IMG/VR virus record: IMGVR_UViG_3300026518_000006
Span: 124,001-188,000 of that record
Length of the DNA: 64,000 nt
Source of the DNA: a virus
Direction: 5' to 3' (one strand)
The position numbers and the translations under genes were made by a program. Shown one piece after another: positions 1 through 34,040 of the stretch. Each line of letters opens with the position of its first letter. Position 1 is the stretch's first letter. The notes beneath the pieces were generated by a model. That model was not told the origin of the DNA. It did not search any database and saw only the letters and a list, made by a program, of their open reading frames with translations.

Positions 1-395
1 TTTTTCTTAAATCCATCTAAAATAGCGTCTGAAATCAATTTTATAGTCGTTAATTCAGGATTAATATTAACTTCCATTGAAACACCTGTATCTGTCCATT
101 TCTGTATTCTTCGTGTAACATTTATCATACTATGAGCACCGTATTGGAATTTCCCTTTATAGTACCAATATCTTGTCTTAATATAGCGTGGCAAAATCGG
201 TACACTAATATCAGCTAAAGTTTGGTAATTTAGTTTGGAGTGTGGGGGTTGCCAAGAAGCAGTAGCCCCCATCAGAATACCGCTTGATGTGTTGTGACTT
301 GCACACCCATTATCTAAGAAGTAATGGTGGTCTACCTCGACTTCAAAATCATAGGTGGGAATGGGGTCTTTTTTTGTTATTTTCTTAATTTTCAT
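1..395 (-). CDS. nrdA: NrdA C-terminal fragment with C-intein (partial, runs off window)
   Basis: Second half of a fractured class I ribonucleotide reductase large subunit. The ATG at 395 overlaps the TGA of the endonuclease gene (ATGA). Residues 1-35 form a typical C-intein ending NGCASHN. The C-extein then begins at Thr36 with TSSGILMGATASWQPP, which matches the NrdA C-terminal domain and continues directly from the ATAPN end of the N-extein in the gene at 1343-4573. Trans-splicing would restore ATAPN-TSSG. The C-terminus and redox-active cysteines lie beyond the window edge. Seen: intein end and extein continuity. Inferred: active splicing. Confidence 0.88.
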   Translation of the reverse strand, partial: MKIKKITKKDPIPTYDFEVEVDHHYFLDNGCASHNTSSGILMGATASWQPPHSKLNYQTLADISVPILPRYIKTRYWYYKGKFQYGAHSMINVTRRIQKWTDTGVSMEVNINPELTTIKLISDAILDGFKK

Positions 396-1312
396 AATAA
401 TTCCTTTAATTTATTGATTATATTTTTTAAATCTGAATTTTTGTTTATTCTGATTAATTTGTAGCCTTTTTCTAAGGCAACTTTCTCTTTCGCTTCATCA
501 TTATCGATAATTGATTGTTTATCAATTAGAAAATGGTTTACTCCTATTTCATCCTCATTATAATGATACATATACCCGTCATATTCTATTATAATTTTTT
601 TGTCCAATATTACAAAATCATAATAATATTTTCGGTCTGCTTCAACATAAAACTCTTCCATATCTTTATACCCAAAAGCGACATTCAACCCCATCCCCAA
701 ACAAAACCCCCATATAGGCAATAGAAGCTCAAGAGACTCTTTTGATGCACTCCCTTTTAATTTATTTAAAGGTGTGTATTTCCCATTATAATGTCTCAAT
801 AAAATCTCTTCATCTGATATATCAATATCATATTTTTTTCTAAAATGACTAATTATCATCTTATTGGATTGTTCGAAGTTATTTTTATAATACTTCTCGG
901 TACCTTTTTCGACACCATATCTATCGATATAACCATCTAATGTATTAGCTAATGAAACTTTTTTAGCCTTTTCAAGATATTTTTTAGTTCCTATTTCTTC
1001 ACCATACCTTGAGACGAAAGATTTCAAATCACTTGAAATTTTTCCTTTTAGTTCATTAACTTTTTCAATAGCTTCATCTTCAGAAAGATTATATCTCTCC
1101 ATTTGCTGATTAATATCATATGGATTAAACTTTCTTTTAGATTGTTTAAGGTTAAATTGTTTTCTCCCCTCTACTTCACCTAATCTGTAAATATAACTTT
1201 CTAAACTATGTCCTGTTTTTAATTTTAGTTCATTAACTTTTTCAATAGCTTCATCTTCAGAAAGATTATATCTCTCCATTTGCTGATTAATATCATATGG
1301 ATTAAATCTCAT
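392..1312 (-). CDS. Free-standing EDxHD (Vsr-like) homing endonuclease
   Basis: A 306-aa protein sitting between the two halves of the nrdA split intein. The C-terminal domain (about residues 225-306) has the Vsr-like pattern IIEYDGYMYH, then a downstream Asp, KEKVALEKGYKLIRI, consistent with the EDxHD endonuclease family found in fractured genes. The N-terminal half consists of DNA-binding-type repeats with the core Y/F-I/V-x-R-Y/L-G-x-x-x-G. Two copies of a 28-residue unit starting FNPYDINQQMERYN are encoded by an exact 84-bp direct repeat. The gene probably spreads by cutting unsplit nrdA alleles. The catalytic assignment is by motif only. Confidence 0.8.
   Translation of the reverse strand: MRFNPYDINQQMERYNLSEDEAIEKVNELKLKTGHSLESYIYRLGEVEGRKQFNLKQSKRKFNPYDINQQMERYNLSEDEAIEKVNELKGKISSDLKSFVSRYGEEIGTKKYLEKAKKVSLANTLDGYIDRYGVEKGTEKYYKNNFEQSNKMIISHFRKKYDIDISDEEILLRHYNGKYTPLNKLKGSASKESLELLLPIWGFCLGMGLNVAFGYKDMEEFYVEADRKYYYDFVILDKKIIIEYDGYMYHYNEDEIGVNHFLIDKQSIIDNDEAKEKVALEKGYKLIRINKNSDLKNIINKLKELL
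1046..1306 (-). repeat. Exact 84-bp direct repeat inside the endonuclease gene
   Basis: Positions 1046-1129 and 1223-1306 are identical over 84 bp. They encode residues 62-89 and 3-30 of the nrdA-associated endonuclease. Perfect nucleotide identity, synonymous sites included, indicates a very recent internal duplication of a DNA-recognition module rather than an old protein repeat. Confidence 0.95.
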
Positions 1313-1342
1313 AGCTAAATCTCCCTATATATTTAATGAGAG

Positions 1343-4300
1343 CTATTGCTTCTCATTGATATTTATAATATCATCACCCTCTTTCAATTCATCACAACGA
1401 ATCCAAATCTCTTCGCCATTTCTATAGACAAGTAATTTGTGATTGTAGGTGAATTCATAAGTATTTCCATCTTCAAATTCAATTTCTATAACAGGTTGTT
1501 TTCCGTTATACCAAATGCGGTTTACTTCACTTTCTCCGTTTAATGTAGGTACTTTTATTGCGTCTATACCTATCCATTGCGGAACATTCAACTCTTCTAT
1601 TTTTCTGTAGTCTATATTTTGTTCTTCAAGAATATCATAAATAGATTTATTGCCGTCTGTTGTTTTCATTTTATTATGACCACTTTGACAGTTTGGTGCA
1701 GTAGCCAATAATAGGAAATTTCTAATCCCTTTTTCTTGAATTTTTTTAGACATTTCAGACCACTTGAAACCATTTAGGCTCTCTTTATCAAGTTGTTTGG
1801 TATTTTTTCCGAACATTTTAGAATAATCGGCTTTATCAAATAAAGGATAAGCACCTTTTTTCTCTGCAAGTTGAACACTTCTCTCATAACAATACCAAGC
1901 GATTTTTTCGTAAACCTTTTCAAGCTCGTCTAAGTCTTCAGGCTTCTCATAAGATAATTTATTATAAGCCATCCAATCACCTGTGCCCAACACTCCAATA
2001 CCAACATTTCTAAGAAGTTTTGATGAATTTTCAGCTTCTTTTACGGGCATTGTTCCTGTTTCAATACTTGCATCCATCATATCAACAGCGTTGTAGCAAA
2101 CTCTCTTCAATAGTTTATCTTCAGGGTCGTTTACAATTAATCCCAAATTGATACTCAAAAGATTACAACTGTGGTATAGCCCATCACTTTCTGTACTCAT
2201 AACTCCATTTTTGTAGCTTTGAACCCACTCGGTAGGTGCTTTAGTAACACTAAACGACTCCGTACAATTCATAGTCATAACACCATTAAACATTAATGTA
2301 TGGTTTTTTGGTTCATTACCACAATAAGTTGCTCCTCTCAACCCTGTTCTATCTATATTTTTAACGGTAACAAATCTAATTGCACTTCTATTATATTCTC
2401 TCATAGTAGGCATAACTCTATAAGCTTTATATCCTAAATCTAATAGTTTGATGCACTCAGAACCTGCAATTAATAATCTATATAGAGGTTTAACCGTGTA
2501 TTCTTTTTTATCAGAAGACCCGTTATTTAGAGGCAATTTTCTTTCGCCTCCATTATGTACTTTTTGTACTTTAGAATTAATACCCATTTCTTGTAAGAAT
2601 AACATTAAATTATTAATGAAAATTTCATTAACAGATGCAAATTGGATGCTTTCACTGCCTTTATCGTTTGTTAGAGTACCATCACTATCCATAATACCTG
2701 CTAACCATTTTAACCGACTTTCTAAAGTGTAATCAGAAGTAGGAATAAAAAATCTATCTTTTAATAATCTTGTGTAACTAATGGTAGTTCTATTTTGGGC
2801 TTCATCTTCATTAAATGAAGTATAACCACTAAAGTTATTCACTAAAGCTCTTTTCTCGTGATACAAATAAATTCTTTGTATTCCATTGTTATCTTGAGAC
2901 CCATCCCCTGAAAAAAACCCATTCTCATAAGCCAAAGGTAGCACCTTGTCCCCACTTAAAACAGGCAAATCGAATTTGGCAAGTCTGTCACCTACACTCA
3001 ATTCTTCAGTTCTCTTAATAATTGGAGCTTTTCTGCTGTCATCCTGTACGACTAACCAACGGTGCGCTAATGTGGCATTTATCGTTTGATTATTTGATAA
3101 AGAAACTGTGACTAATTCATCATCATCACTTGTTTTGAAAAGCTCACTCATAGACCATTCGGTACCGTTCCATACTTCAATAGTTTGACCCGATACAGAT
3201 TCAATGTCCACATAACCTTGTTTGGTAAGAATTTTGGTATCACCTGATACACAAAGGTTGGCACTATTAGCGATTAAATCTTCACCTTTCAGGTAGTTAC
3301 ATAGATTTAGATTGTCTTTATGTGTAATATAAAAGTCGCCTGTTTCAACCCAAATTCTCAGAAACTCTTTCCAAAGTGCTTTTGCATTTTCCTTTTTGCA
3401 GTTTGTTAGTGTGCCTTTTTCGCATAAATCATAGATGGTTTCTTGTGCTTTATACAGCTCTTCATCAATCAAAGAAACAATATCAATCCCTGTTTTTGTT
3501 TTCACTTCATAACTATCAAAGAGATATACATCTTTGTTTTTTAAAACAGCATCCACAAAATAATCATCCACTACTACTTGTGGGAACAAGTCAAAACACT
3601 TATTTCTCAAGTCACCTTGTGTTTCGGATTTCATTTCAATAAAGCTATGAATATCACCGTGCCACCAATCCAAAGCAGGAGTAATAGCACCTTTTCGGAT
3701 TCCTCTTTGGTTTACCGCTACTGCAATATCATTGATTATTTTAGCCCATCTGATGATATTGTTGGCATTTGGGATATTGTCTGAGTACGAACCTTCAGGT
3801 CTTAAACCACCTAAATAAACTCCAATTCCGCCACCCTCTTTGGAGATTTTAGCCATATCCTGCCAAGTTTTTGTAATACTCTCAATATTGTCTAAGGTAG
3901 GAACAATAAAACAGCTACCTACATTACCACCTTCTCTTCTGAGATTTGATTTAAATGGTGTTGCTAATGAGATATACATTCTCTGTAGCATAGTGAAATA
4001 TTCTTTTGTCTTTTTAACTCTTTCACTTTCATCTTCAATGCCACCTAAAATCATAGACGAAGCCATATCAGAAAATTGAGGGTATTCAATAACTCCTCTT
4101 GAATTTTTTAGAATATACTTTGAGCGAAGACTTAACACCTGAGCAATATTCATATCAAAGTCGTACTTCGGGTTAATAGCCTTTTTGATTGTCTTTATAT
4201 CCTCTTCTGAAAAAGGCTTCATAATATCTTTTCTGTAATGATTTGTTCTGACCGCATATTTAATATACTCATCAAATTGGTCATATTCAAATTTTGTATT

Positions 4301-4573
4301 TTTATATACTTGTCTATGGAGTTGGTACATTGATAATCTACCTGCGACAATAGACATCTCAGGATGGTCTTGGTCTATCATTGATGTAGCTGTAGAAACT
4401 AATAAATCTTGAATATCAGAGGTTTTCATATTGTTTTTAAAATTCAGCGTTAGCTTTGCTTCCAACTCAAGTTGATTTTCTTTTAATCCTGTGTATGCGA
4501 ATTCAAGTTGTTTTTTAATTTTACTATTATCAAACGGTTTTTTTGAACCATCTCTTTTAATTACTGTTTTCAT
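1343..4573 (-). CDS. nrdA: Ribonucleoside-diphosphate reductase large subunit NrdA, N-fragment, with one contiguous intein and an N-intein
   Basis: Reduces ribonucleotides to deoxyribonucleotides for phage DNA synthesis, together with an NrdB not seen here. Residues 1-90 are an ATP-cone (VIKRDGSKKPFD). The catalytic barrel follows, with GGNVGSCFIV and WWHGDIHSFIE. A contiguous intein occupies residues 441-769, between SANL and CTESF. The extein resumes at 770-961 and ends LLLATAPN, after which a split N-intein (962-1076) runs to the stop. The C-half is encoded at 1-395. The mature enzyme therefore needs one cis- and one trans-splicing event. A middle-type promoter lies upstream at 4604-4628. 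Confidence 0.93.
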   Translation of the reverse strand: MKTVIKRDGSKKPFDNSKIKKQLEFAYTGLKENQLELEAKLTLNFKNNMKTSDIQDLLVSTATSMIDQDHPEMSIVAGRLSMYQLHRQVYKNTKFEYDQFDEYIKYAVRTNHYRKDIMKPFSEEDIKTIKKAINPKYDFDMNIAQVLSLRSKYILKNSRGVIEYPQFSDMASSMILGGIEDESERVKKTKEYFTMLQRMYISLATPFKSNLRREGGNVGSCFIVPTLDNIESITKTWQDMAKISKEGGGIGVYLGGLRPEGSYSDNIPNANNIIRWAKIINDIAVAVNQRGIRKGAITPALDWWHGDIHSFIEMKSETQGDLRNKCFDLFPQVVVDDYFVDAVLKNKDVYLFDSYEVKTKTGIDIVSLIDEELYKAQETIYDLCEKGTLTNCKKENAKALWKEFLRIWVETGDFYITHKDNLNLCNYLKGEDLIANSANLCVSGDTKILTKQGYVDIESVSGQTIEVWNGTEWSMSELFKTSDDDELVTVSLSNNQTINATLAHRWLVVQDDSRKAPIIKRTEELSVGDRLAKFDLPVLSGDKVLPLAYENGFFSGDGSQDNNGIQRIYLYHEKRALVNNFSGYTSFNEDEAQNRTTISYTRLLKDRFFIPTSDYTLESRLKWLAGIMDSDGTLTNDKGSESIQFASVNEIFINNLMLFLQEMGINSKVQKVHNGGERKLPLNNGSSDKKEYTVKPLYRLLIAGSECIKLLDLGYKAYRVMPTMREYNRSAIRFVTVKNIDRTGLRGATYCGNEPKNHTLMFNGVMTMNCTESFSVTKAPTEWVQSYKNGVMSTESDGLYHSCNLLSINLGLIVNDPEDKLLKRVCYNAVDMMDASIETGTMPVKEAENSSKLLRNVGIGVLGTGDWMAYNKLSYEKPEDLDELEKVYEKIAWYCYERSVQLAEKKGAYPLFDKADYSKMFGKNTKQLDKESLNGFKWSEMSKKIQEKGIRNFLLLATAPNCQSGHNKMKTTDGNKSIYDILEEQNIDYRKIEELNVPQWIGIDAIKVPTLNGESEVNRIWYNGKQPVIEIEFEDGNTYEFTYNHKLLVYRNGEEIWIRCDELKEGDDIININEKQ
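2267..3253 (-). mobile_element. Contiguous LAGLIDADG-type intein in nrdA
   Basis: This 329-residue intein starts at Cys441 (CVSGDTKIL) and ends FNGVMTMN before Cys770. That resembles the ends of other RIR1 inteins, which use FNGxxTxxC rather than HN-C. The N3-type motif TLAHRWLV is present. Two LAGLIDADG-like helices, LAYENGFFSGDGS and LKWLAGIMDSDGT, indicate an embedded homing endonuclease. The asymmetry with the nearby split intein shows two independent invasions of the same gene. Confidence 0.9.
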
Positions 4574-15863: not shown

Positions 15864-17321
15864 TTAATACCAATAAAATACTTTATTGCCACTATCAAAA
15901 ATTTGTCTATACCCATTATCGAACATATTTTGAAGTGCTGTTTTGTTTTCATCGAAATCAAAATCCTTAATATCTTTTAATTTATGCTTTTGAAACTTTT
16001 GTCTGCTATACAAGATATATGAATTGTGTTTAAAGAAAAAGAAATTTTTATCAGAATTATGACTAAAGAAAAACCCAAGAGTCTGATATAAATTTCCATC
16101 TGACCATCTTCGATTAGCATATGAAATTAAACTTCGTCCAATATGTTTTTTAAATCTATTTAATAGCTTGGAGGCACCACCTATAACAACTGTGTTCAAT
16201 TTTGTGCAAAACCTAACCAACTCATAATCTGCTTTTTTGTTAAATCTATTTTTAGAAAAAGTCATCACTGAAACCAACTTATTATTATAGAACAGCCCGT
16301 AATTTATCGAAGAGTGACTTCCGCCTTGCAGGTGATTATCTTCACAAAAATAAAAAGCATCTTTAGAACTAATCTCTTTAATTTCTGTATCTCTTGCATA
16401 TATTCTGTTATCAGTCTTATTTAGTCTATTTTTTATTACACTCTTCCACTTTTCTTTATTAAGAATCCACTCATTTTCAAAAATGTGTAAAAGTTGTATT
16501 CCGTTTTCTTCACAGACATCAGTTTTATGTTTATGTTTATTGGGGTTGAAATGATTTAAATTGTTCGGAAATGTTGACCCTTTTGAATGAAAGGTCAATC
16601 CATCGTATTCGATGGCTAAATTATATTCAGGTATGTATATGTCCAACTCAAAACCCAAGTGCATATCTCTTTCTATAATATTCTCTACCCCTATATCGGA
16701 TAGAAAGGATATAATCTCTTTCTCTGCATTAGATTGTTTATTGGAACATTTTGAACATCCTTGACCATTTAGATGAGCGTTTGGTTCCATTAAAAACTTT
16801 CCGTGAGTTGGACACAATATCTCAATTTTTTCTTTGCTATGTTTATATTCACTCACATATTGGTATTTGTACTGATGTTTTTTATTAAAATCTTCTACTG
16901 CTTGATTGTGGTCTTTTTTTGAATGATTGTTTCTTATAAGGTTGGCACATTTTGGACACCCAGACCCATTTTTATGGTTTTTGGGTGTCGGAAAAAAACT
17001 ACCGTGTATTTTACAAGTTACTTCGACAGGTGTTTTCATATTAATAAAATTTACTTTATCGTATGAGTATTTTTCACCGTGTACTTTTTTAAATTGTTCG
17101 ATTACGGTTTCAGTGGTGTACTTAGAGGATTTGTTGCATTTGCTACAACCTGCTCCTCTCATATGATGGTTTGGAGTCTGAGGAAACTCCCCGTGTATAG
17201 GACATATTATAATCATTGGGGTGCGGGTGTCCACTATACTATCTTCAATATATGTGTATTTATTATTGTGCTTTTCATGACACTTATTTAGTATTTCGGT
17301 TTTTGATAATTTCTTACTCAT
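15864..17321 (-). CDS. Free-standing homing endonuclease with three zinc-ribbon repeats
   Basis: 485 aa. Three repeats of C-x2-HG-x-F-x2-P-x2-H-x2-G-x-GC-x-KC cover residues 1-195 and should bind zinc and DNA. A Vsr/EDxHD-like nuclease core follows (ELDIYIPEYNLAIEYDGLTF, then KHKTDVCEENGIQLLHIFE). The last 170 residues look like the GNAT-like domain often appended in this class. It lies directly 3' of gp17, a common landing place for homing endonucleases protecting or invading the terminase locus. No intein halves flank it. Confidence 0.75.
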   Translation of the reverse strand: MSKKLSKTEILNKCHEKHNNKYTYIEDSIVDTRTPMIIICPIHGEFPQTPNHHMRGAGCSKCNKSSKYTTETVIEQFKKVHGEKYSYDKVNFINMKTPVEVTCKIHGSFFPTPKNHKNGSGCPKCANLIRNNHSKKDHNQAVEDFNKKHQYKYQYVSEYKHSKEKIEILCPTHGKFLMEPNAHLNGQGCSKCSNKQSNAEKEIISFLSDIGVENIIERDMHLGFELDIYIPEYNLAIEYDGLTFHSKGSTFPNNLNHFNPNKHKHKTDVCEENGIQLLHIFENEWILNKEKWKSVIKNRLNKTDNRIYARDTEIKEISSKDAFYFCEDNHLQGGSHSSINYGLFYNNKLVSVMTFSKNRFNKKADYELVRFCTKLNTVVIGGASKLLNRFKKHIGRSLISYANRRWSDGNLYQTLGFFFSHNSDKNFFFFKHNSYILYSRQKFQKHKLKDIKDFDFDENKTALQNMFDNGYRQIFDSGNKVFYWY

Positions 17322-17355: not shown

Positions 17356-18477
17356 TTAATCAAAAGCACCACTATTAATTTTTCGCATAGCATCAAAAGC
17401 TACATCAGGGTCATATGAACTCATATTTTGAAGCATACGGTCTTTCGTATAATCATCACTGCCATCATCAAACCCACCATCTGTGTCTAATAATGAATAA
17501 TAATCTGCTGTTTTTACACCATCTTCATCTTCTTCAGTATCTAAATCTATATTCTTTCTTAATACATCTAAAAATAAATCAAAATCATCAAACGCTTTTA
17601 TGTGCATAAATGGGGCAAAAATAATAGCTAAACTCATTATCATATCATCGTGATAGCCCTCTTCAGCTTCATATTTTTTCTTCACATTATCGCTTTTAAT
17701 GAAGTTAAAAAATTCGTTGATAGTATCTCTGTCTTGAACTATTAATTTCCCCTCTTCTATAAAAATCTTCAACATATTGATAATAAGAGGTCTTGATTTT
17801 ACAGTAGTTCTAAATCCGTAATATTTTTTATATTTTTTGTCTCCGTCATCTCTATCCCGATACATATTTGGATATTCGTAGTTGAGGTATAAAATATCGG
17901 CTACACTTTGTCCTGCACCTTCATTATTTTCGATAACTAAAAAAGCTTCATTATAATAAAGCCCTAATGTTTCAATATATTCAGGCATAACAAGATAATC
18001 TACATCTAATTTAGCTGAAGCAACCTGTATAAATGGAAATTTTGTAATATCAACCACTTGAATACTAAAACTATCTATCCCTTCTTTTGATGGGTCAATA
18101 CCAATGATGTAATTATGTCCTTTTATAGGTTTTTCATAAATATTAATCCCGCTGAATATGGTATCTTTAGCGACAGGTTCTTGTGGCACCATTAACTTCA
18201 ATCTTTCTGTACTAATCAGTGTTGAGGCAGAGCCAAGAAATTCACACGCCTCTGTTTGTGCGAAGAATTGTGCTCCATTTCTTGCTATTGTTTGTTTCTT
18301 GTACTCTTGAGGGGATAAAGGATTTCCTTTTTTATCAAAATGAGGAACTTCAGTCCAACTCGCTGTTACCAATCGGTGCCCGCTTTTGGACTTAAAAATA
18401 TTATATTTTACTGTATATGTCCCGTCAGGGTTTTTAATTATCTCTTTAATATCATTTATAGATTTTATTTTAAGCAT
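17356..18477 (-). CDS. gp17: Large terminase gp17, C-terminal fragment (nuclease domain)
   Basis: 373 aa. Begins in the late ATPase region: SWTEVPHFD, then EACEFLGSASTLIS corresponds to T4 FEGTSGTLIS. The RNase H-fold headful nuclease follows, with likely metal ligands in IIGIDPSKEG (Asp128), VIENNEGAG (Glu183) and GYHDDMIM (Asp277/278). It cuts concatemeric DNA during packaging. Its start overlaps the previous fragment's stop (TAATG), so the two are coupled. Residues 1-32 do not look like a functional C-intein (no terminal HN), leaving open whether this chain is ever joined or works as a separate subunit. Confidence 0.88.
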   Translation of the reverse strand: MLKIKSINDIKEIIKNPDGTYTVKYNIFKSKSGHRLVTASWTEVPHFDKKGNPLSPQEYKKQTIARNGAQFFAQTEACEFLGSASTLISTERLKLMVPQEPVAKDTIFSGINIYEKPIKGHNYIIGIDPSKEGIDSFSIQVVDITKFPFIQVASAKLDVDYLVMPEYIETLGLYYNEAFLVIENNEGAGQSVADILYLNYEYPNMYRDRDDGDKKYKKYYGFRTTVKSRPLIINMLKIFIEEGKLIVQDRDTINEFFNFIKSDNVKKKYEAEEGYHDDMIMSLAIIFAPFMHIKAFDDFDLFLDVLRKNIDLDTEEDEDGVKTADYYSLLDTDGGFDDGSDDYTKDRMLQNMSSYDPDVAFDAMRKINSGAFD

Positions 18478-19100
18478 TATTCAACATCCATTATAATAGG
18501 GTGACGCTCTATAGTATGAAATTCTTTATAAATTTCTTCCAACGAAAATTCACCTAAAGCATCAATTTCGATTGTATCATCTTCAGACAACACAACTTCT
18601 TCGTCTTTAAAATTGATATTTTTAGCACCCTCCACTAGTTGAAAAAAGTGGTTCATACCATTAGCTGTAGAAGTGTTTATAACCTGTTTAAATATCAATG
18701 AGTTCATAGTAGGTATTACAGCATCGATAAAGTCATCCCAATCTTTTGATTTTATATAACCCGCTTCGTCAGTGTAGATAATATTGCAATTATGAGACTC
18801 AATCATATTTGTTGTATATGTGTGCCCCCTTACACCCACAACATCATAAAACTCAAAAGCCCCCTCTTTGTGAGTAATATTTTTTATTACACCATTGGAT
18901 ATTTTATCACCAACTTTTAAATTTTTGGCTTGTCTAAAAATTTTTCCTGATTTTGATTTTCCTACTAATAATCTATGGTCTTCGGTACATTTTAAACTAC
19001 TATTGTCAGTTTCAATATAGTAAAGTATTTTTTTATTAATTCGTCTAACTGTTTCAAAATCTTCATACCCTCTCTCAGTTTTTATCATATAATCGTTCAT
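18477..19100 (-). CDS. gp17: Large terminase gp17, third fragment with C-intein (Walker B and coupling motif)
   Basis: 207 aa. Residues 1-104 are a long C-intein with a block-B-like CTEDHRLLV and ending MIESHN. The extein starts at Cys105 with CNIIYTDEAGYIK (Walker B and catalytic Glu) and includes the ATPase coupling motif INTSTANGMNHFF. The final 45 residues (SEDDTIEIDALGEFSLEEIY) have no place in T4 gp17 and resemble the N-terminus of the second intein here, but lack the catalytic Cys1. Overlaps the endonuclease gene by 26 bp and the next fragment by TAATG. Confidence 0.87.
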   Translation of the reverse strand: MNDYMIKTERGYEDFETVRRINKKILYYIETDNSSLKCTEDHRLLVGKSKSGKIFRQAKNLKVGDKISNGVIKNITHKEGAFEFYDVVGVRGHTYTTNMIESHNCNIIYTDEAGYIKSKDWDDFIDAVIPTMNSLIFKQVINTSTANGMNHFFQLVEGAKNINFKDEEVVLSEDDTIEIDALGEFSLEEIYKEFHTIERHPIIMDVE

Positions 19101-20050
19101 AAAAAGCTCCTATTAGATTTTCTTTTGTTATAGATGATTTCCAATTTTTAGATGAATTTAATTCTGATGGCAACATCTCTAAATTAATGATATTTCCTAT
19201 TATATAAGGAGGGATACCTTCCTTAAACCCCATAATTTTTGAAAATTTATGGTCTATATTATAAAAACCTTTTCCTCTCCCTCTTTTGTTATAGTTCGTC
19301 AAGGTATATAAATCTTGAGCTTTAGTTACTTTATCCACTTCTCTACAGTATAATTCATAATCTGAGAGTTCACTTTCTTTTACCCAAAGTCCGTTAATTT
19401 CCTTTAATTTTCTATAATTTTTTACTCTACATTTTATTTTCCCACAAGTAGGTCTATACCCTTGTCCATATGATAAATATTTTCTTGGTTTACAACAATA
19501 TTCACATTTTGGCTCTTCTTTCATATCATTCATAAATAAATATATATTTTTAGATATATTATTTGTTATTTTAGGTATAGAACCATAGATATCCATTATT
19601 AACTGATTTTTATTATGGTAGTTATCGGGTTTTATTTTGGATATGTAATTTTTAAGGTCATTTACGGATTTATCGAGTTTATTTTCAAGTTTCGGTGCAT
19701 TTAAATCATCCATTTGGCATTTGTGTGAGCAATATTTAGCATAACCATCTGATATATTTTTAAATTTTGTTTTTGCACCACATTTACATATTGGGGGTAT
19801 TAAAATGTTATGTTTTATAATATATAGCAACTCATTCAATTTATTTGTAGTTGGTGGAATTTTTGCATTTTCTAATAATTTTTGATAGTGAATTTTATAG
19901 AACTCAGATTTTGATGTTAATTTTCCAAAGCTTTCAAACTCTAACAACTCAATAATTGACAGTTCTTTCATATAACTCTTTTATAGTAATTTTTTCTTCT
20001 TTTAATGTTTTTTTATTTATAACTTCTACCGTAGTATCAGGAGATACACA
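18789..20050 (-). mobile_element. Atypical split intein 2 in gp17 with enclosed HNH endonuclease gene
   Basis: N-intein of 33 aa (19949-20050), starting CVSPDTTVEV after extein RGYT. C-intein of 104 aa (18789-19100), ending ESHN before Cys. The very short N-part and long C-part match the atypical split of the AceL-TerL intein, also from a terminase, and the N-parts look alike (CVxxDTxVE, then IKxLY). The 298-aa endonuclease gene lies between. Insertion is just ahead of Walker B. Confidence 0.85.
19075..19971 (-). CDS. Free-standing HNH-type homing endonuclease
   Basis: 298 aa between the halves of gp17 intein 2. Two zinc-knuckle pairs (CKCGAKTKF...CSHKCQ and CEYCCKPR...CGKIKC) precede a C-terminal HNH-like core: FYNIDHKFSKIMGF, NIINLEMLPSELNSSKNWKS. 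These resemble phage HNH endonucleases with Asp-His and Asn-Leu...Asn-x2-K motifs. It overlaps both neighbours (22 and 26 bp), so it is tightly integrated in the gp17 operon. Confidence 0.75.
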   Translation of the reverse strand: MKELSIIELLEFESFGKLTSKSEFYKIHYQKLLENAKIPPTTNKLNELLYIIKHNILIPPICKCGAKTKFKNISDGYAKYCSHKCQMDDLNAPKLENKLDKSVNDLKNYISKIKPDNYHNKNQLIMDIYGSIPKITNNISKNIYLFMNDMKEEPKCEYCCKPRKYLSYGQGYRPTCGKIKCRVKNYRKLKEINGLWVKESELSDYELYCREVDKVTKAQDLYTLTNYNKRGRGKGFYNIDHKFSKIMGFKEGIPPYIIGNIINLEMLPSELNSSKNWKSSITKENLIGAFYERLYDKN

Positions 20051-20659
20051 AGTATATCCACGAAAGCTGTCACTTGATGGGCTGTCTGTCATAATCCTTG
20101 TGCCGTTTTCAAACTCGATATTTGATTTGTTCCACACCGATATCCCATTCATAAGCCATATTGGAAGCTCTAAGAAAACCTTTTTAATTTTATCCAATAC
20201 TTCACGGGCTGTGGACGGTTTATTGGCTACAATCCCAATATTTATAGCAGTATCGTGAAACATAGCTCTCCACAACAGATAGTTGCCCACTGTAACCGTA
20301 TTATGGCTAAGAATATCATTAGTGTAATAAAGATTATCCCCACTAACACTTAAATCATACATTTCTTCTGAGTACCCTAAATCTATTACTTTCGTTACTT
20401 TTGAATCGCCTTTTTTTGTATTTAAGATTTTTCCTAAACTATTTTTTGCAAATACTTCTTGAAAGTCATTAGTAATTAAAATATGGTCATCAGCACACTT
20501 TATTTTTAGTCCATTTTGCAGGTGCACTTCATATAATCTGTATTTAACAGTTTTATTAGTTTTAGTTATATCTCTCCAACCATCGTGGCTTTCGACTTGC
20601 CAATCATTGACATCAAATTGTTCTGTAAATTTTCGGTTTATTTTATCTGATAGTTTCAT
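19949..20659 (-). CDS. gp17: Large terminase gp17, second fragment between two inteins
   Basis: 236 aa in three parts. Residues 1-120 are the C-intein of intein 1 (block-B ADDHILI, ending NDILSHN). Residues 121-203 are the gp17 extein following Walker A (TVTVGNYLLWRAMFHD to SFRGYT). Residues 204-236 are the N-intein of intein 2 (CVSPDTTVEV). Its first base overlaps the end of the GIY-YIG endonuclease gene. The extein aligns with the T4 gp17 ATPase between Walker A and Walker B. This piece must be spliced at both ends. Confidence 0.9.
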   Translation of the reverse strand: MKLSDKINRKFTEQFDVNDWQVESHDGWRDITKTNKTVKYRLYEVHLQNGLKIKCADDHILITNDFQEVFAKNSLGKILNTKKGDSKVTKVIDLGYSEEMYDLSVSGDNLYYTNDILSHNTVTVGNYLLWRAMFHDTAINIGIVANKPSTAREVLDKIKKVFLELPIWLMNGISVWNKSNIEFENGTRIMTDSPSSDSFRGYTCVSPDTTVEVINKKTLKEEKITIKELYERTVNY

Positions 20660-22009
20660 TATTTTAGCCCATATTTATTTTTAAAATTTGTAGTGAAATT
20701 TTCCAAATCTTTTTTATTTATTTTTAATATGTTTTGTAATATATCTTCATCAAAACATTCAGTAGAAGAAAAATGATTATACTTCTTCGTTACTCTATTA
20801 TTCTTCGATAAAATATATTGCTCTTTATAGAAAGCTTTATCGTAAGGCATTTTCTCTGTATAGATAACATTATATGATAATCCGTTTTTGACTTCAAATA
20901 TTGACTGACTCCCCCACCTTGATATAATTCCTTGAGATGTTATGCCTATTTTATAAAAAACATCTCTTGAATTATAAAACTTAATATAATAAAGAATAGT
21001 TTCTGTATTTTTTGCCCAATAGTTTTTCTTTCTTATCAAATCTATACTCCATCCTATGTGCTCACCTTTCCCTTTATCTCTATTAATTCTCTCTAATTCT
21101 TCTTTTGGTTTTGATTGTAGAGTTTTTTGCCACTTTTGTTGTCTTTGATTAAATATAATTAATCCTTCTTCACCATATCTCTCAATACATTTCTCTAAAG
21201 AAAAAGTGCTTTGTCGTTCTGATAATAATCTTTTAGCTTCATTTTCATTATAACCTCGTTTTAAATAATACTCTAAAGTACAATCATTATTACCATTTTC
21301 CTTATTCGATTTCGATATTTTAGAATGAACTTCATTTATTTTTTGCTGTTTTTCTTCCTCTGTTAAACCTTGATATTTTATAAAGTTTTTAGAGCCACTT
21401 GAATACTTTCCACCGTGATTTTTGGCAGGATTATTATCTGAAGTGAACCCCTTTACTTGTTTGTCAATATTATGTAGTCCATATCGTACAATAGTTCCTA
21501 ATAGTCCATTTGATTTCTTTACATTTAATATATATCGTTGTCTTTCAAGGAACTTTGTTTTCATCCCATCAGATATAAACTTAGCAAAATTATCTATCTT
21601 CATATATTCGCCTTTATTTAAATAATATAGGCACTTTTTTAACTCTCTGAATTGAGATAATGTAGGAAATTTATTTAAGTTACTATAAAAGGATTTTTGA
21701 TTGAATAACCACCTTAAATCTTTTTCTTTATATGGTTTACCTTTGTTATCCAATTTAATTTTCAATTTAATTTTCAATTTATCTATTTCATTTTTATGAA
21801 CTAAATTAGTTGTTTTATTATAAGGAATGTATTCAACTTCTGAAAAGTCTATATATGGTATTTTTGAAACTCTTATATAGTTTGGCGAATAATGAAGTCT
21901 TCTGTTTACTTTGCTCATTTATCATTTCGTGGAATTCACCAATCGGCATTTTCACTAATTCTCCTGTGTGTTTGTTTTTTATATTTATAATAGTTGAAAA
22001 GTCGTTGCA
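20300..22009 (-). mobile_element. Split intein 1 in gp17 Walker A with enclosed GIY-YIG endonuclease gene
   Basis: The N-intein is 58 aa (21833-22009) starting CNDFSTIINI right after extein PRQSGK. The C-intein is 120 aa (20300-20659) ending LSHN before Thr, which completes the Walker A GKT. The short N-part and long C-part again indicate an atypical split point. The 419-aa endonuclease ORF lies between and overlaps the N-fragment by 86 bp. Confidence 0.87.
20659..21918 (-). CDS. Free-standing homing endonuclease, GIY-YIG superfamily (T5orf172-like)
   Basis: 419 aa between the halves of gp17 intein 1. Residues about 305-390 have the degenerate GIY-YIG signature of the T5orf172/MUG113 group: ILYYIKFYN...VFYKIGITSQGIISRWGSQ. 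Upstream helical repeats (YYLKRGYNENEAKRLLSERQ, LEKCIERYGEEG) are DNA-binding modules like those of the nrdA endonuclease. It starts inside the N-fragment reading frame. Catalytic assignment by motif. Confidence 0.75.
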   Translation of the reverse strand: MSKVNRRLHYSPNYIRVSKIPYIDFSEVEYIPYNKTTNLVHKNEIDKLKIKLKIKLDNKGKPYKEKDLRWLFNQKSFYSNLNKFPTLSQFRELKKCLYYLNKGEYMKIDNFAKFISDGMKTKFLERQRYILNVKKSNGLLGTIVRYGLHNIDKQVKGFTSDNNPAKNHGGKYSSGSKNFIKYQGLTEEEKQQKINEVHSKISKSNKENGNNDCTLEYYLKRGYNENEAKRLLSERQSTFSLEKCIERYGEEGLIIFNQRQQKWQKTLQSKPKEELERINRDKGKGEHIGWSIDLIRKKNYWAKNTETILYYIKFYNSRDVFYKIGITSQGIISRWGSQSIFEVKNGLSYNVIYTEKMPYDKAFYKEQYILSKNNRVTKKYNHFSSTECFDEDILQNILKINKKDLENFTTNFKNKYGLK

Positions 22010-22480
22010 TTTACCGCTCTGTCTCGGATAAAGTACAACTAAATCCTCTAAACTCAGGAGCTCATCTTCTAAAAATACTTGGTATCTTCTTGGTTCAGGT
22101 CTTGCCAATCCTGTTTTTGTAGTGATGAAACAATAATTACTTCTGAAATATTTAAATGATTTCTTACACTTTTCTATTTCTATTTTGTGCAGAGTATTTA
22201 AATCTAATTCAGTTTTTTCACGCTTTAAAACACGAATACCATTGTATGATATTTTATTGCCGTATTTATCGGTATAATAACCATTTTCATTTCTTGGAGG
22301 TGTTAATAATAACAACAAGCCATCGTGTTCTTCAGGAGTCCAATCATAGGTATTCTGCACAAATTTTAAAAATGTTTTTTCCTCTAATAATTGGTCTAAT
22401 AAATCATAGATGTATTCATCTTCAGTGAGGTCTTTTACTTTAGTCAGTAGTTTTCTGTATTTTTTATCTAAATTAGTCAT
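21833..22480 (-). CDS. gp17: Large terminase gp17, N-terminal fragment with N-intein
   Basis: 215 aa. Residues 1-157 are the N-terminal part of the packaging ATPase ending in LYPRQSGK, the first part of Walker A (T4: SRQLGKT). At Cys158 an N-intein of 58 aa begins and runs to the stop. The ATPase is thus cut exactly through its ATP-binding loop and inactive until trans-splicing restores SGK-T. A late promoter (22485-22492) directs it, as expected for gp17. Confidence 0.9.
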   Translation of the reverse strand: MTNLDKKYRKLLTKVKDLTEDEYIYDLLDQLLEEKTFLKFVQNTYDWTPEEHDGLLLLLTPPRNENGYYTDKYGNKISYNGIRVLKREKTELDLNTLHKIEIEKCKKSFKYFRSNYCFITTKTGLARPEPRRYQVFLEDELLSLEDLVVLYPRQSGKCNDFSTIINIKNKHTGELVKMPIGEFHEMINEQSKQKTSLFAKLYKSFKNTIYRLFRS

Positions 22481-22484
22481 ATAT

Positions 22485-22492
22485 TATTTATA
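22485..22492 (-). promoter_or_regulatory. Late promoter for the fractured gp17 operon
   Basis: TATAAATA on the minus strand only 4 bp before the ATG at 22480, so the leader would be nearly absent unless initiation uses a downstream start. A poor ribosome site is noted. Confidence 0.55.
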
Positions 22493-30865: not shown

Positions 30866-30887
30866 AAACTATACCAAAGTATAGTTT
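30866..30887 (-). terminator. Hairpin terminator after uvsW
   Basis: Arms AAACTATAC and GTATAGTTT (9 bp) with a 4-nt loop, starting at the uvsW stop and continuing into TTTTAAG. AT-rich but with a T-rich tail. Confidence 0.55.
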
Positions 30888-31800
30888 AAATATTGGGTAG
30901 AGTGACTTCTTTAGTTAAAATGGGGTGTCCTTCTGATACATAGTACATTTCTCTTTCATAAAAGTGTTTTAAACTATAGGTGTCTTTAACATAAGTGAAC
31001 ACATCTACTAAATCAAAAACATATACATTATCACCTTTTTCTTTATGTAACCTCATAATTCTACCCATAGCTTGAAGTACTAGAGTATATGATTTTGTTG
31101 AGCTCAAAAACACAAGGTTCTTTAGTCTTGGGATGTTGATACCTGTACTCAAAACATTATATTGTCCTATTACAATAGCATTCTCACAAGTATTAAGGTA
31201 AAGTCTAATCTGCTCTCTAACACTTGATTTTGTGTTTCCACTCATAAAGAAAACATTGTGTTTTTTCATAAACTCAAAGTCAGATTTTCTTTTATTGGTA
31301 AGCTTCTCACCTGTTAAACTTTCAAAAGTATCTTCCCCGTGTGCAGTGACAGCGTATAAGGCTACTGTAACCCCTTTAAGTTTTTCTAAAAACTGTTTTA
31401 CAAACAACTGTCTTGATTTGCTTTCTCTTATGAATTTTGTTTCTTCCTGATACTTCATACCACTTTTGGTTTGGTTTCGTGGATGTGTTAAGAAAATAGC
31501 CATAATAGTTGTGTCTGTTAATAAGCCCATCTCAATTAGTTGTCTTGCATTAACAATTCTTTCGGGTTTTCCCAATGCTTGCTCTAATAACATAGCATCT
31601 TCTTCTATGATAGGCATAGAGCCAGTCATACCCAATTTTATCTCACAAGGTTGCTTTAATATAGACTGAAGTACTTCAGCTTTAGCTTGGTGACAATTAG
31701 ACACTAAAATGTTATTGGCATAATAATTGTGGTTGTTTTCTATATGTAAATTATAAGTATCACCTTGAAACTCAACCTTTTTTATGGACTTTATCTTCAT
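30886..31800 (-). CDS. uvsW: UvsW helicase C-terminal fragment with C-intein
   Basis: 304 aa. Residues 1-35 are a canonical C-intein (NNHNYYANNILVSN). The extein starts Cys36-HQAKAEVLQS, completing the DECH box begun by the N-fragment. KLGMTGSM, then VIGQYNVLSTGINIPRLKNL and LQAMGRIMRLHKEKG are helicase motifs III-VI as in T4 UvsW. UvsW unwinds branched DNA and R-loops, shifting the phage from origin-dependent to recombination-dependent replication. Start overlaps the nuclease gene by 29 bp. Confidence 0.9.
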   Translation of the reverse strand: MKIKSIKKVEFQGDTYNLHIENNHNYYANNILVSNCHQAKAEVLQSILKQPCEIKLGMTGSMPIIEEDAMLLEQALGKPERIVNARQLIEMGLLTDTTIMAIFLTHPRNQTKSGMKYQEETKFIRESKSRQLFVKQFLEKLKGVTVALYAVTAHGEDTFESLTGEKLTNKRKSDFEFMKKHNVFFMSGNTKSSVREQIRLYLNTCENAIVIGQYNVLSTGINIPRLKNLVFLSSTKSYTLVLQAMGRIMRLHKEKGDNVYVFDLVDVFTYVKDTYSLKHFYEREMYYVSEGHPILTKEVTLPNI

Positions 31801-33142
31801 TCTTACCCTTTAGTTTTTCCAATTTTTGTATCGCATTTGTTACTTTATCGGTATTTTCATCATCCAATTTAATATTAGCGAATAACTCTTTTATATTGCT
31901 TAAATTTTTAATCAGATAATCCTCTGTTATAATTTTATATGAGTAATTATTTTCTTCACACCAAACCAAAGCACTATCTTCTTTTGCTATATTTCGAGCA
32001 TTGAGTATTAGTGATTTTGGTTTTATTTCGAATATTATATTATGTTTGTTATCTGTAAAATCCACAATATATGTGTGTATACTATCTTCAAATAAATATG
32101 GTATTCTAGTGGTTTCATATAGTGTATTTGGGTTCAACAAATAAAACATAAATTCCCAAGAGCTCCTAAAATTAAAATTGCCAAATTTTATTCTGCTTCT
32201 CGACCAAGAGTTGGTAATACACGGGGTAAATTCTCCGCTTGCAATTTTTGATTTCATTATTATAGAGTTATGTTTGGCTATCTTCTTTTTTGTCTCTTTT
32301 GACATTTTATGAGCAGGGTTGTTTTTTCTCATCCGCTCAGAACATAATAATTGTCTACATTTTTCATTACAGGTTTTTCTATTCAATGATGAAGATTGTG
32401 CCCTTTTAATTTTATTACCACAATAATCGCAATATAGTGGGTCTATTTCATCAATATATTCTATTCTTGACAATCTAAGCAAGTTCGGAAATTTTAAATC
32501 TGCTCCAACAAAAAGTAAATATTTCATATAATTATCATTATCATCTATAAATGAATATTTAGGGGTAGTTGTTGATTTATACTTTGGTAAATTATTTTTT
32601 AATGTTTCGTATGTAACATTTTCTACAATCCTACCACTATAATCCCAATTTCCAAGAACTAGCTTTAAGTCATAAATGTCATCTTTAAAAGCATTGAATA
32701 TAAAGGCATATTTTATCGTTTTGTTGCCTTTATATTCATAAAAGAGCGTCCTTAAATCTTCACGATATATTAAAATTTGTTTTATTATTTTTGATTTTAA
32801 TGGTTTTGACAGCTTGTTTGGATTAAGTGTTTTTAAATATTTTTTATAATCATCCATATCTTATTTATAGGGCAGAAGCTCATCAGTTAACACCAACTCG
32901 TCTACTCTAACATAACCTCGTTGTGTAAATACCTTATGATTACCTGTGATATATAGCTTTCCGTTATCTGTTTCTATCTCATACATCTGTTCGTTTGATA
33001 TATTTTTATGTGTTTTTAGTACTTGATTGTATTCATTTTGTTTGGTAGTTTCATTGTATGTCATAACTAAATCTCCTTCAGTTATACTGCCGATTGGCAC
33101 ATCTCCATTAATAGTTTTAATCAAAGTATCACCTCTTAGACA
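31696..33142 (-). mobile_element. Split intein in the uvsW DECH box with enclosed PD-(D/E)XK nuclease gene
   Basis: N-intein of 93 aa (32861-33142), starting CLRGDTLIKT after extein ILVDE and including the TGNHKVF block-B motif. C-intein of 35 aa (31696-31800), ending LVSN before Cys. The canonical 93/35 split differs from the atypical gp17 inteins. A 361-aa nuclease ORF separates the halves. Confidence 0.88.
31772..32857 (-). CDS. Free-standing homing endonuclease, TnsA-like PD-(D/E)XK type
   Basis: 361 aa between the uvsW intein halves. The nuclease core at about 230-310 reads FRSSWEFMFYLL, a Y...PYLFE segment, HTYIVDFTDNKHNIIFEIKP and a C-terminal IITEDYL, the E...D...ExK layout of TnsA-like phage homing enzymes. 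A zinc knuckle (CDYCGNK...CNEKCRQ) and a NUMOD-like basic linker (KMSKETKKKIAKHNS) precede it. Spaced 3 bp from the N-fragment. Confidence 0.78.
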   Translation of the reverse strand: MDDYKKYLKTLNPNKLSKPLKSKIIKQILIYREDLRTLFYEYKGNKTIKYAFIFNAFKDDIYDLKLVLGNWDYSGRIVENVTYETLKNNLPKYKSTTTPKYSFIDDNDNYMKYLLFVGADLKFPNLLRLSRIEYIDEIDPLYCDYCGNKIKRAQSSSLNRKTCNEKCRQLLCSERMRKNNPAHKMSKETKKKIAKHNSIIMKSKIASGEFTPCITNSWSRSRIKFGNFNFRSSWEFMFYLLNPNTLYETTRIPYLFEDSIHTYIVDFTDNKHNIIFEIKPKSLILNARNIAKEDSALVWCEENNYSYKIITEDYLIKNLSNIKELFANIKLDDENTDKVTNAIQKLEKLKGKNEDKVHKKG

Positions 33143-33817
33143 CTCATCAACCAAGATAGCGTCATATAGTCTTACATCTTTCATAACTTTGTTCAAGCTT
33201 TGCCAAGTGGTGATTATATAGGGTTTATCCAACGCTTTATCATCATTCTCACCACCAATTAGTTTAATACTGTCAAGCATCTCTTTTGGGGCATTGTAAT
33301 CTTTAAAATCTTGGAACATTTGAGATGTTAATCCGATTGTGGGGACTACTAATATAGTCGGGATATCGTGGTCGAAAAAGTATTTTAAAACCAAATAAGC
33401 AACCATTGACTTGCCACCACCTGTGGCAATAATATCCAATTTATTTCTACTTCTAATAAGGCTTAGAAAGCCTTTTAGTTGGTGTTTATAGGGGGTAAAG
33501 GGTAGGGTAGGGATAACGCTTTTCAAGAAGTCTATAGCATCATCACGCTCTAATGGCGGTAATAATTCAACTTTATCGAATTCAATATTTTCTATAAGAC
33601 GCTCTTTAAAACCTTTTTCAACTTTGAAATATTTACCATCTTTATAATTCTGAGCTTGATAAAATCGAGTATATCCATCATCTTTGCCCATTTGAACTCT
33701 AGGTTCGTGCTCTGAATTTAGTCTTTTGGCTCTAAGTAGCTTATCAATCTTGAATACAGTGTCTCTATTATTAGTGAATAGGTTAAGATGATGTTTCGCC
33801 TCATTTAATATTGTCAT
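32861..33817 (-). CDS. uvsW: UvsW helicase N-terminal fragment with N-intein
   Basis: About 318 aa. I start at the ATG at 33817, preceded by GGAAA; the ATG 39 bp further upstream lies inside the preceding gene. The extein carries the UvsW N-domain, TPYKHQLKGFLSLI (Q-like motif), Walker A DIIATGGGKS and motif Ia/Ib, then stops at YDAILVDE, halfway through the DECH box. The N-intein follows to the stop. The fragment lacks the catalytic Cys-His of the box, so it cannot hydrolyse ATP before splicing. Confidence 0.9.
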   Translation of the reverse strand: MTILNEAKHHLNLFTNNRDTVFKIDKLLRAKRLNSEHEPRVQMGKDDGYTRFYQAQNYKDGKYFKVEKGFKERLIENIEFDKVELLPPLERDDAIDFLKSVIPTLPFTPYKHQLKGFLSLIRSRNKLDIIATGGGKSMVAYLVLKYFFDHDIPTILVVPTIGLTSQMFQDFKDYNAPKEMLDSIKLIGGENDDKALDKPYIITTWQSLNKVMKDVRLYDAILVDECLRGDTLIKTINGDVPIGSITEGDLVMTYNETTKQNEYNQVLKTHKNISNEQMYEIETDNGKLYITGNHKVFTQRGYVRVDELVLTDELLPYK

Positions 33818-33827
33818 ATAGTTTCCA

Positions 33828-34040
33828 TTATATTGTGTATTCGGGATTATCCTCAAGCCATTTAATATAAGGCTTTTTTAGTACGATTTCGGTAGACCCT
33901 CTTTTTCGTATATTTCCTTTGATTTTTACTTTATTGTCGATAACATCAGTAACTACACCTTCATTAAACCAGTAGCCGTCTTTGCCTGTGTATAAAACAG
34001 TATCGCCAATCTTTACATTAATCCCGAAATAGTCTTTCAT
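33828..34040 (-). CDS. Small SH3/KOW-like protein, 70 aa, C-terminus NPEYTI
   Basis: VKIGDTVLYTGKDGYWFNEG, VVTDVIDNKVKIKG looks like a small beta-barrel of SH3 or KOW type, followed by a helix ending WLEDNPEYTI. First of a run of tiny genes (34-38 kb) that share the C-terminal motif. Overlaps its upstream neighbour by ATGA. Confidence 0.58.
   Translation of the reverse strand: MKDYFGINVKIGDTVLYTGKDGYWFNEGVVTDVIDNKVKIKGNIRKRGSTEIVLKKPYIKWLEDNPEYTI

Follow-up and report, generated by a model that had tools for sequence, protein, structure and literature searches.

The window analysed here is a 64,000-base stretch of DNA from a bacterial virus, positions 124001-188000 of the 235,593-base IMG/VR record IMGVR_UViG_3300026518_000006 (G000). 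It carries a T4-type large terminase gene (gp17, TerL) spread over four open reading frames (ORFs), with two endonuclease-like genes in between (17356-22480, minus strand). Read from 22480 down to 17356, six successive overlapping ORFs were found in the order ORF1, HE1, ORF3, HE2, ORF5 and ORF6. The overlaps are 86 bases for ORF1/HE1, 23 bases for ORF3/HE2 and 26 bases for HE2/ORF5, and a TAATG stop/start is common to HE1/ORF3 and to ORF5/ORF6. ORF1 (215 amino acids, aa) ends in an N-intein segment (IntN1, residues 158-215); ORF3 (236 aa) consists of a C-intein segment (IntC1, 1-120), an extein (121-203) and a second N-intein segment (IntN2, 204-236); and ORF5 (207 aa) starts with a second C-intein segment (IntC2, 1-104). 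These places, lengths and segments are as described in an initial annotation of this DNA. In reading order, the features are:

22010..22480, minus strand: ORF1 extein, N-terminal part of gp17, residues 1-157, ending ...LYPRQSGK (Walker A minus Thr); phrog_5989 terminase large subunit, 7.6e-17; gap-free against intact gp17s
21836..22009, minus strand: IntN1, N-intein 1, 58 aa, start CNDFSTIINI; hold-out N-intein profile E = 0.008 (all six frames of the window); 62% identity to relative L005
20659..21918, minus strand: HE1 gene, 419 aa, endonuclease-like, probable GIY-YIG/T5orf172-type C-terminal domain, overlapping the end of ORF1; phrog_681 endonuclease, 9.2e-10
20300..20659, minus strand: IntC1, C-intein 1, 120 aa, end ...YYTNDILSHN↓T (arrows mark splice or insertion points throughout); Pfam Intein_splicing 1.2e-7; TIGR01443 above cut-off; gp41-1 intein 6qaz, 4.9e-9
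20051..20299, minus strand: ORF3 extein, middle part of gp17, 83 aa, TVTVGNYLLW...DSFRGYT; phrog_5989, 1.3e-26
19952..20050, minus strand: IntN2, N-intein 2, 33 aa, start CVSPDTTVEV; hold-out N-intein profile E = 1e-6
19075..19971, minus strand: HE2 gene, 298 aa, two zinc-finger-like Cys clusters and an HNH-like C-terminus (DHKFS...NLEMLPSELN); phrog_5104, 5.3e-12; phrog_3339 homing endonuclease, 3.2e-5
18789..19100, minus strand: IntC2, C-intein 2, 104 aa, end ...YTTNMIESHN↓C; Pfam Intein_splicing 4.4e-6; CatC 6dsl, 1.6e-18 (5-row profile) and 3.4e-5 alone
18480..18788, minus strand: ORF5 extein, gp17 Walker B (CNIIYTDEAGY), coupling motif and poorly conserved tail; alignment with relatives
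17356..18477, minus strand: ORF6, 373 aa, remainder of the gp17 ATPase domain and RNase H-like nuclease; Pfam Terminase_6C 8.6e-6, above cut-off

ORF1, ORF3, ORF5 and ORF6 were assigned to the large terminase by PHROG and Pfam searches. When joined in silico, they yielded all features of a T4-type TerL (Walker A, Walker B, coupling motif and RNase H-like nuclease) in intact order. A search of the record with the ORF6 protein matched one place only, and no second terL copy was found by it.

For the N- and C-intein profiles, only inteins of other phages were used; neither contained the window or L005, the nearest relative that bears inteins, and the N profile additionally excluded every row from the GK↓T site. 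Both profiles were then scanned over the whole 64-kb window, translated into segments in six frames. The top two matches of the C profile were the head of ORF3 (E = 1e-27) and the head of ORF5 (E = 5e-25), and those of the N profile were the tails of ORF3 (E = 1e-6) and ORF1 (E = 0.008), exactly the four fragments for which the initial annotation had proposed an intein match. With a profile that included L005, the N-intein score observed for the ORF1 and ORF3 tails was reached by 0 of 2000 shuffles. Pfam Intein_splicing matched the N+C concatenations (2.2e-8 for intein 1, 3.1e-7 for intein 2) better than the C-parts alone, all of these scores lying slightly below the curated 35.8 bits, and the NCBIfam C-terminal splicing model TIGR01443 scored above its cut-off for IntC1. 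The solved relatives of the IntC1 family are the gp41-1 intein, VidaL and CatC. The best solved match of IntC2 is CatC (6dsl), the C-part of an engineered consensus of TerL atypical inteins (PMC11766414). By tblastn, IntC1 reached 306 phage records and IntC2 reached 33. Residues of class 1 inteins are in place in both: C158 as Cys1, a block-B His and SHN↓T (terminal His-Asn, Thr+1) in intein 1, and C204 as Cys1, a block-B His and SHN↓C (terminal His-Asn, Cys+1) in intein 2. Judged by homology and these residues, the breaks ORF1/ORF3 and ORF3/ORF5 are both split inteins, apparently of the atypical kind.

Intein 1 lies inside Walker A (PRQSGK↓T) and extends from C158 of ORF1 to the SHN of ORF3; intein 2 lies ahead of Walker B (FRGYT↓C) and extends from C204 of ORF3 to the SHN of ORF5. 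Both insertion points had been placed there before, and comparison with relatives agrees. The exteins joined in silico needed no gap at either junction when aligned with six other gp17s. A relative without the inteins, L024, reads straight through both sites (PRQSGKTVT and SFRGYTCNIIYTDEA), and its uninterrupted stretches YPRQSGKTVTAATYLLW and SFRGYTCNIIYTDEAAYIK are the sequence predicted from splicing. Splicing at the second junction would give the junction peptide GYTCNIIYTDEAGYIK.

The starts of the two N-inteins, which had been noted as alike, do resemble each other, owing to their common membership in a broad TerL intein group. In the C-intein tree, however, A-site inteins formed one supported group (100/99) and B1/B2 inteins another (100/97), and inteins 1 and 2 thus fall in separate supported clades.

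The third break, ORF5/ORF6, is of another kind. It is positioned within the ATPase domain, past the coupling motif and before the nuclease, and the same break, likewise intein-free, is present in L005, L006, L024, L041 and L057; L025 and L026 are unbroken. A relic of a third split intein was considered, since the ORF5 tail appears intein-like by eye (EDDTIEI...FSLEEIYKEF), and was rejected for the window: the tail scored 0.2 bits with the N-intein profile, which 971 of 2000 shuffles equalled. A programmed frameshift joining ORF5 and ORF6 was likewise rejected. Frame relation and overlap are not constant among the relatives, L041 having a gap of about 200 nt instead, and a conserved frameshift is thereby excluded. 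The best reading is an older plain gene fission with two chains assembling. The tail of L041 at the fission is weakly N-intein-like (6 of 2000 shuffles), and some fissions of this type might therefore be intein fossils. The initial annotation had attributed the division of gp17 into four ORFs to two inteins; the two split inteins stand, and the fourth ORF comes from the intein-free fission shared with relatives.

The relatives were viral contigs surveyed with a nuclease profile. In this clade, TerL carries inteins at five or more sites: PRQ↓S (A1), PRQSGK↓T (A2), FRGx(S/T)↓C (B1), the Walker B site DE↓C (B2) and x↓CxFLGS (C), the last at the start of the nuclease region. L005, which comes from a different dataset, demonstrated both window inteins at identical codons with identical ORF order and breaks, retained all splice-site residues of both, and shares 68% identity with the window in IntC1 and 46% in IntC2. 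It has a third split intein at site C, and each of its inteins holds one or two endonuclease genes. In L073 and L084, A1 is split around an HE1 relative and B1 around an HE2-type relative; in L035 and L051, both sites are likewise split. The double TerL fracture is thus a recurrent architecture. The initial annotation had regarded the locus as seemingly an extreme case of a fractured gene; it does not stand alone, with the double fracture and both endonuclease families present in L073, L084 and L005 and a third split intein added in the last. A1 and A2 inteins are one family with insertion points three residues apart. Adding A2 members to the tree placed A1 as one group among the A2 rows; support was moderate (73% of bootstrap trees), and the placement offers a lead toward a single shift of the insertion point.

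HE1 and HE2 are located exactly between the halves of their split inteins, as in fractured genes, and the presence of a different endonuclease-type gene inside each intein, as first annotated, is borne out by the sequence and the relatives. The HE1 relatives of L005, L066, L073, L084 and F379 were all found within A-site (Walker A) inteins, although shorter partial matches also turned up at other places (L047, Cr30). The zinc-finger-like N-terminal part of HE2 is common to the B1-intein endonucleases of six loci (L005, L032, L051, L073, L084 and CP21). The endonuclease families look locked to their intein site. Within the HE2 type, the window and L005 have an HNH-like C-terminal domain, and the five others have T5orf172/MUG113 in its place (best 4.9e-12). 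A constant N-terminal part with a variable C-terminal domain suggests an exchange of the cutting domain, with recognition of the target remaining tied to the site. At the B site of L005 (2772-5098), the intein contains two endonuclease genes, the second GIY-YIG-like; the second starts with MEIIKS like the C-intein and ends with DFYGNN like the first endonuclease, and these repeats suggest an insertion with duplicated target.

We consider it likely, with a probability of about 0.88, that gp17 is a fractured gene in which two split inteins with enclosed endonucleases join three precursors, giving a 343-residue chain that acts with the ORF6 chain. The anatomy, intein homology, splice-site residues, empty-site homologues, recurrence and association of endonuclease family with intein site are established at the sequence level; the steps that follow are what we infer from them. 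One transcript would carry ORF1, ORF3 and ORF5, each translated into a precursor of its own. Split intein 1 (IntN1 on ORF1 and IntC1 on ORF3) would join ...PRQSGK to TVTVG... in trans, creating Walker A, and split intein 2 (IntN2 on ORF3 and IntC2 on ORF5) would join ...SFRGYT to CNIIYTDE... directly ahead of Walker B. This would yield an ATPase chain of 343 residues. Since the ORF5/ORF6 fission is free of an intein, the predicted outcome of the two trans-splices is a two-chain motor, in which this chain would assemble and work with the separately translated 373-residue ORF6 chain (last ATPase part and nuclease). Each enclosed endonuclease would cut empty terL and probably spreads its intein to intein-free terL alleles by homing.

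Several observations weigh against this reading. Atypically split inteins have an N-part of 15-37 aa and a long C-part (PMC13014065). IntN2/IntC2 (33/104 aa) are within that range; IntN1/IntC1 measure 58/120 aa, and IntN1 exceeds it. The extra tail of IntN1 is kept in L005 and is similar in L040. Block B of intein 1 reads A-D-D-H, the usual Thr being absent. HE1 and HE2 both remained below curated Pfam cut-offs: the window HE1 had no Pfam match, with T5orf172 at E = 0.026 in one relative, and HE2 reached only E = 0.069 against the HNH phrog_1271. AlphaFold models of both were weak (pLDDT 56-57), Foldseek of the weak HE1 model returned nothing, and PDB profile searches with HE1 and HE2 gave no useful match. 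Because no curated cut-off was reached and the models were weak, the labels GIY-YIG for HE1 and HNH for HE2, as originally given, are likely and are kept here as probable. A younger age of the inteins relative to the exteins was not robust: dS by NG86 was lower for intein 1, and the difference was gone with two-fold amino acids alone (p = 0.32).

A second explanation is that the inteins are dead relics, so that gp17 would act as four non-covalent chains or be non-functional. In its favour, several phages already have, at ORF5/ORF6, a plain fission that looks functional, and genes in pieces are known for phage ribonucleotide reductase according to passages citing that work in PMC3322345 and PMC10448857. 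However, the splice-site residues are all kept in both inteins and in L005, at the C-intein identities given above, and ATP binding by a P-loop divided between Lys and Thr by folded appendages seems unlikely. The single terL copy detected with ORF6 also speaks against loss of function, and we regard dead inteins as improbable.

A third explanation would have the endonuclease-containing stretches removed from the mRNA as introns, as in the terL of Vibrio phage ICP1, where an RNA-spliced intron has a T5orf172 homing gene adjoining (PMC10448857). A similar proposal was made in 2012 for Campylobacter phage IBB_35, whose authors took the interruptions of TerL to be an intein and an intron with homing endonuclease (PMC3322345). 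In that phage (L108, 2392-7665), we found intein sequence at A1, B1 and B2, and its 'intron' is probably a split intein. In the window, no group I or II intron match was found with Rfam in the 8.5-kb region at E up to 1; in-frame coding continues on both sides beyond the extein edges into N- and C-intein sequence; and gp17 is restored at the protein level with the Cys, His-Asn and +1 residues in place. RNA splicing, the main rival, is very unlikely. An assembly or sequencing artefact breaking intact ORFs is barely conceivable, even for a metagenomic virus record, because the breaks, order and overlaps recur identically in the independent contig L005, from another dataset, and analogous breaks occur in complete cultivated phages.

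Besides IBB_35, Campylobacter phage CP21 carries cis inteins at A1 and B2, its B1 intein being split around a related endonuclease, and in Campylobacter phage F379, A1 is split around an HE1 relative. These three phages resemble the window in having TerL inteins at identical or neighbouring sites and differ in that their Walker-A intein is three residues upstream (PRQ↓S rather than GK↓T). In coliphage HY03 (L106, 1019-3871), gp17 has an atypically split intein at Walker B (DE↓C) that encloses an endonuclease ORF; Krischvirus JK32 (L107, 754-3865) has one at the same site, its N-part having an endonuclease-like extension. At GK↓T, Delftia phage PhiW-14 has a split intein without endonuclease and Ackermannvirus P46FS4 an unsplit intein. 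Each of these last four has one intein at a Walker B or GK↓T site, in contrast to two in the window. Cultivated phages propagate with TerL in intein-split pieces. In the annotations of HY03, JK32 and IBB_35, the split TerL appears as terminase pieces, endonuclease or misc_feature.

Fractured genes, as reportedly described by Dassa et al. in 2009, have the order N-intein, free-standing endonuclease and C-intein within an essential phage gene, the endonuclease being of a new family. The window shares this order in an essential phage gene and differs in having two units (three in L005) in series in one TerL, an atypical split, an additional intein-free break, and endonucleases that are HNH-like and GIY-YIG-like. 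AceL-TerL, GOS-TerL and the consensus Cat-TerL are atypically split (Thiel 2014; Bachmann & Mootz 2015; reviewed in PMC11766414) and resemble the window inteins as phage TerL split inteins with a short N-part and a C-part of about 104-115 aa. AceL-TerL and GOS-TerL were reported as single metagenomic inteins, whereas the window has two different ones, at GK↓T and FRGYT↓C, both still enclosing endonuclease genes. The C-extein of the Cat construct begins Cys-Glu, which may fit the third TerL site (CEFLGS; site C, empty in the window). Mycobacteriophage TerL inteins cluster in the ATPase motifs (PMC5050341), like those of the window; a text search of that paper gave no mention of split inteins. 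Atypically split TerL inteins and fractured genes are already known. A single TerL that combines a plain fission with two different split inteins, each with an endonuclease gene of its own, was not found described in a literature search that covered neither subscription papers nor preprints, and priority is not certain.

If both inteins work, an essential motor enzyme would be assembled here from three fragments by natural tandem trans-splicing, such as protein engineers build artificially, and its two inteins, which come from separate clades, must not cross-react. With at least five insertion sites in the clade, terL is a hotspot for the accumulation of atypically split inteins. A wider reading, which we hold tentatively and think somewhat less probable than its opposite, is that terL is stably multi-piece in this clade, with the P-loop and Walker B present in one chain only once two to three orthogonal trans-splices have taken place, a two-chain ATPase, and site-specific endonuclease families with an exchangeable catalytic domain and a DNA-recognising part that is kept at the site. 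Under that wider reading, serial splicing would act as an assembly gate for DNA packaging. The cultivated split-TerL phages (HY03 on E. coli; F379, CP21 and IBB_35 on Campylobacter) allow asking whether packaging waits for splicing. Such pieces are currently annotated as 'terminase', 'hypothetical protein' or 'intron-associated endonuclease'.

Around the gp17 locus, a homing-endonuclease-like gene rich in DUF723/zinc-finger sequence (phrog_559, 6.9e-138) is located directly downstream of the last gp17 piece (15864-17321, minus strand). The window holds 27 copies of the T4-type late promoter box TATAAATA, where 14.5 would be expected (0 of 100 shuffles). Of these, the copy at 22485-22492 ends 4 bases ahead of the gp17-N ATG, too close for a leader to fit; the spacing is identical in L005 and L024.

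Further inteins were observed elsewhere in the window. A ribonucleotide-reductase-like gene (NrdA, named by eye; 3-4573, minus strand) has two inteins: one in cis, with what looks like a LAGLIDADG domain, and, near the end of the gene, a canonically split one with an N-part of about 105 aa, a C-part ending CASHN↓TSSG, and an endonuclease-like ORF within it (392-1312). A helicase-like gene (UvsW-like by eye; 30886-33856, minus strand) has a canonical split intein at DE↓CHQ, and an endonuclease-like ORF (31772-32857) is present between its halves.

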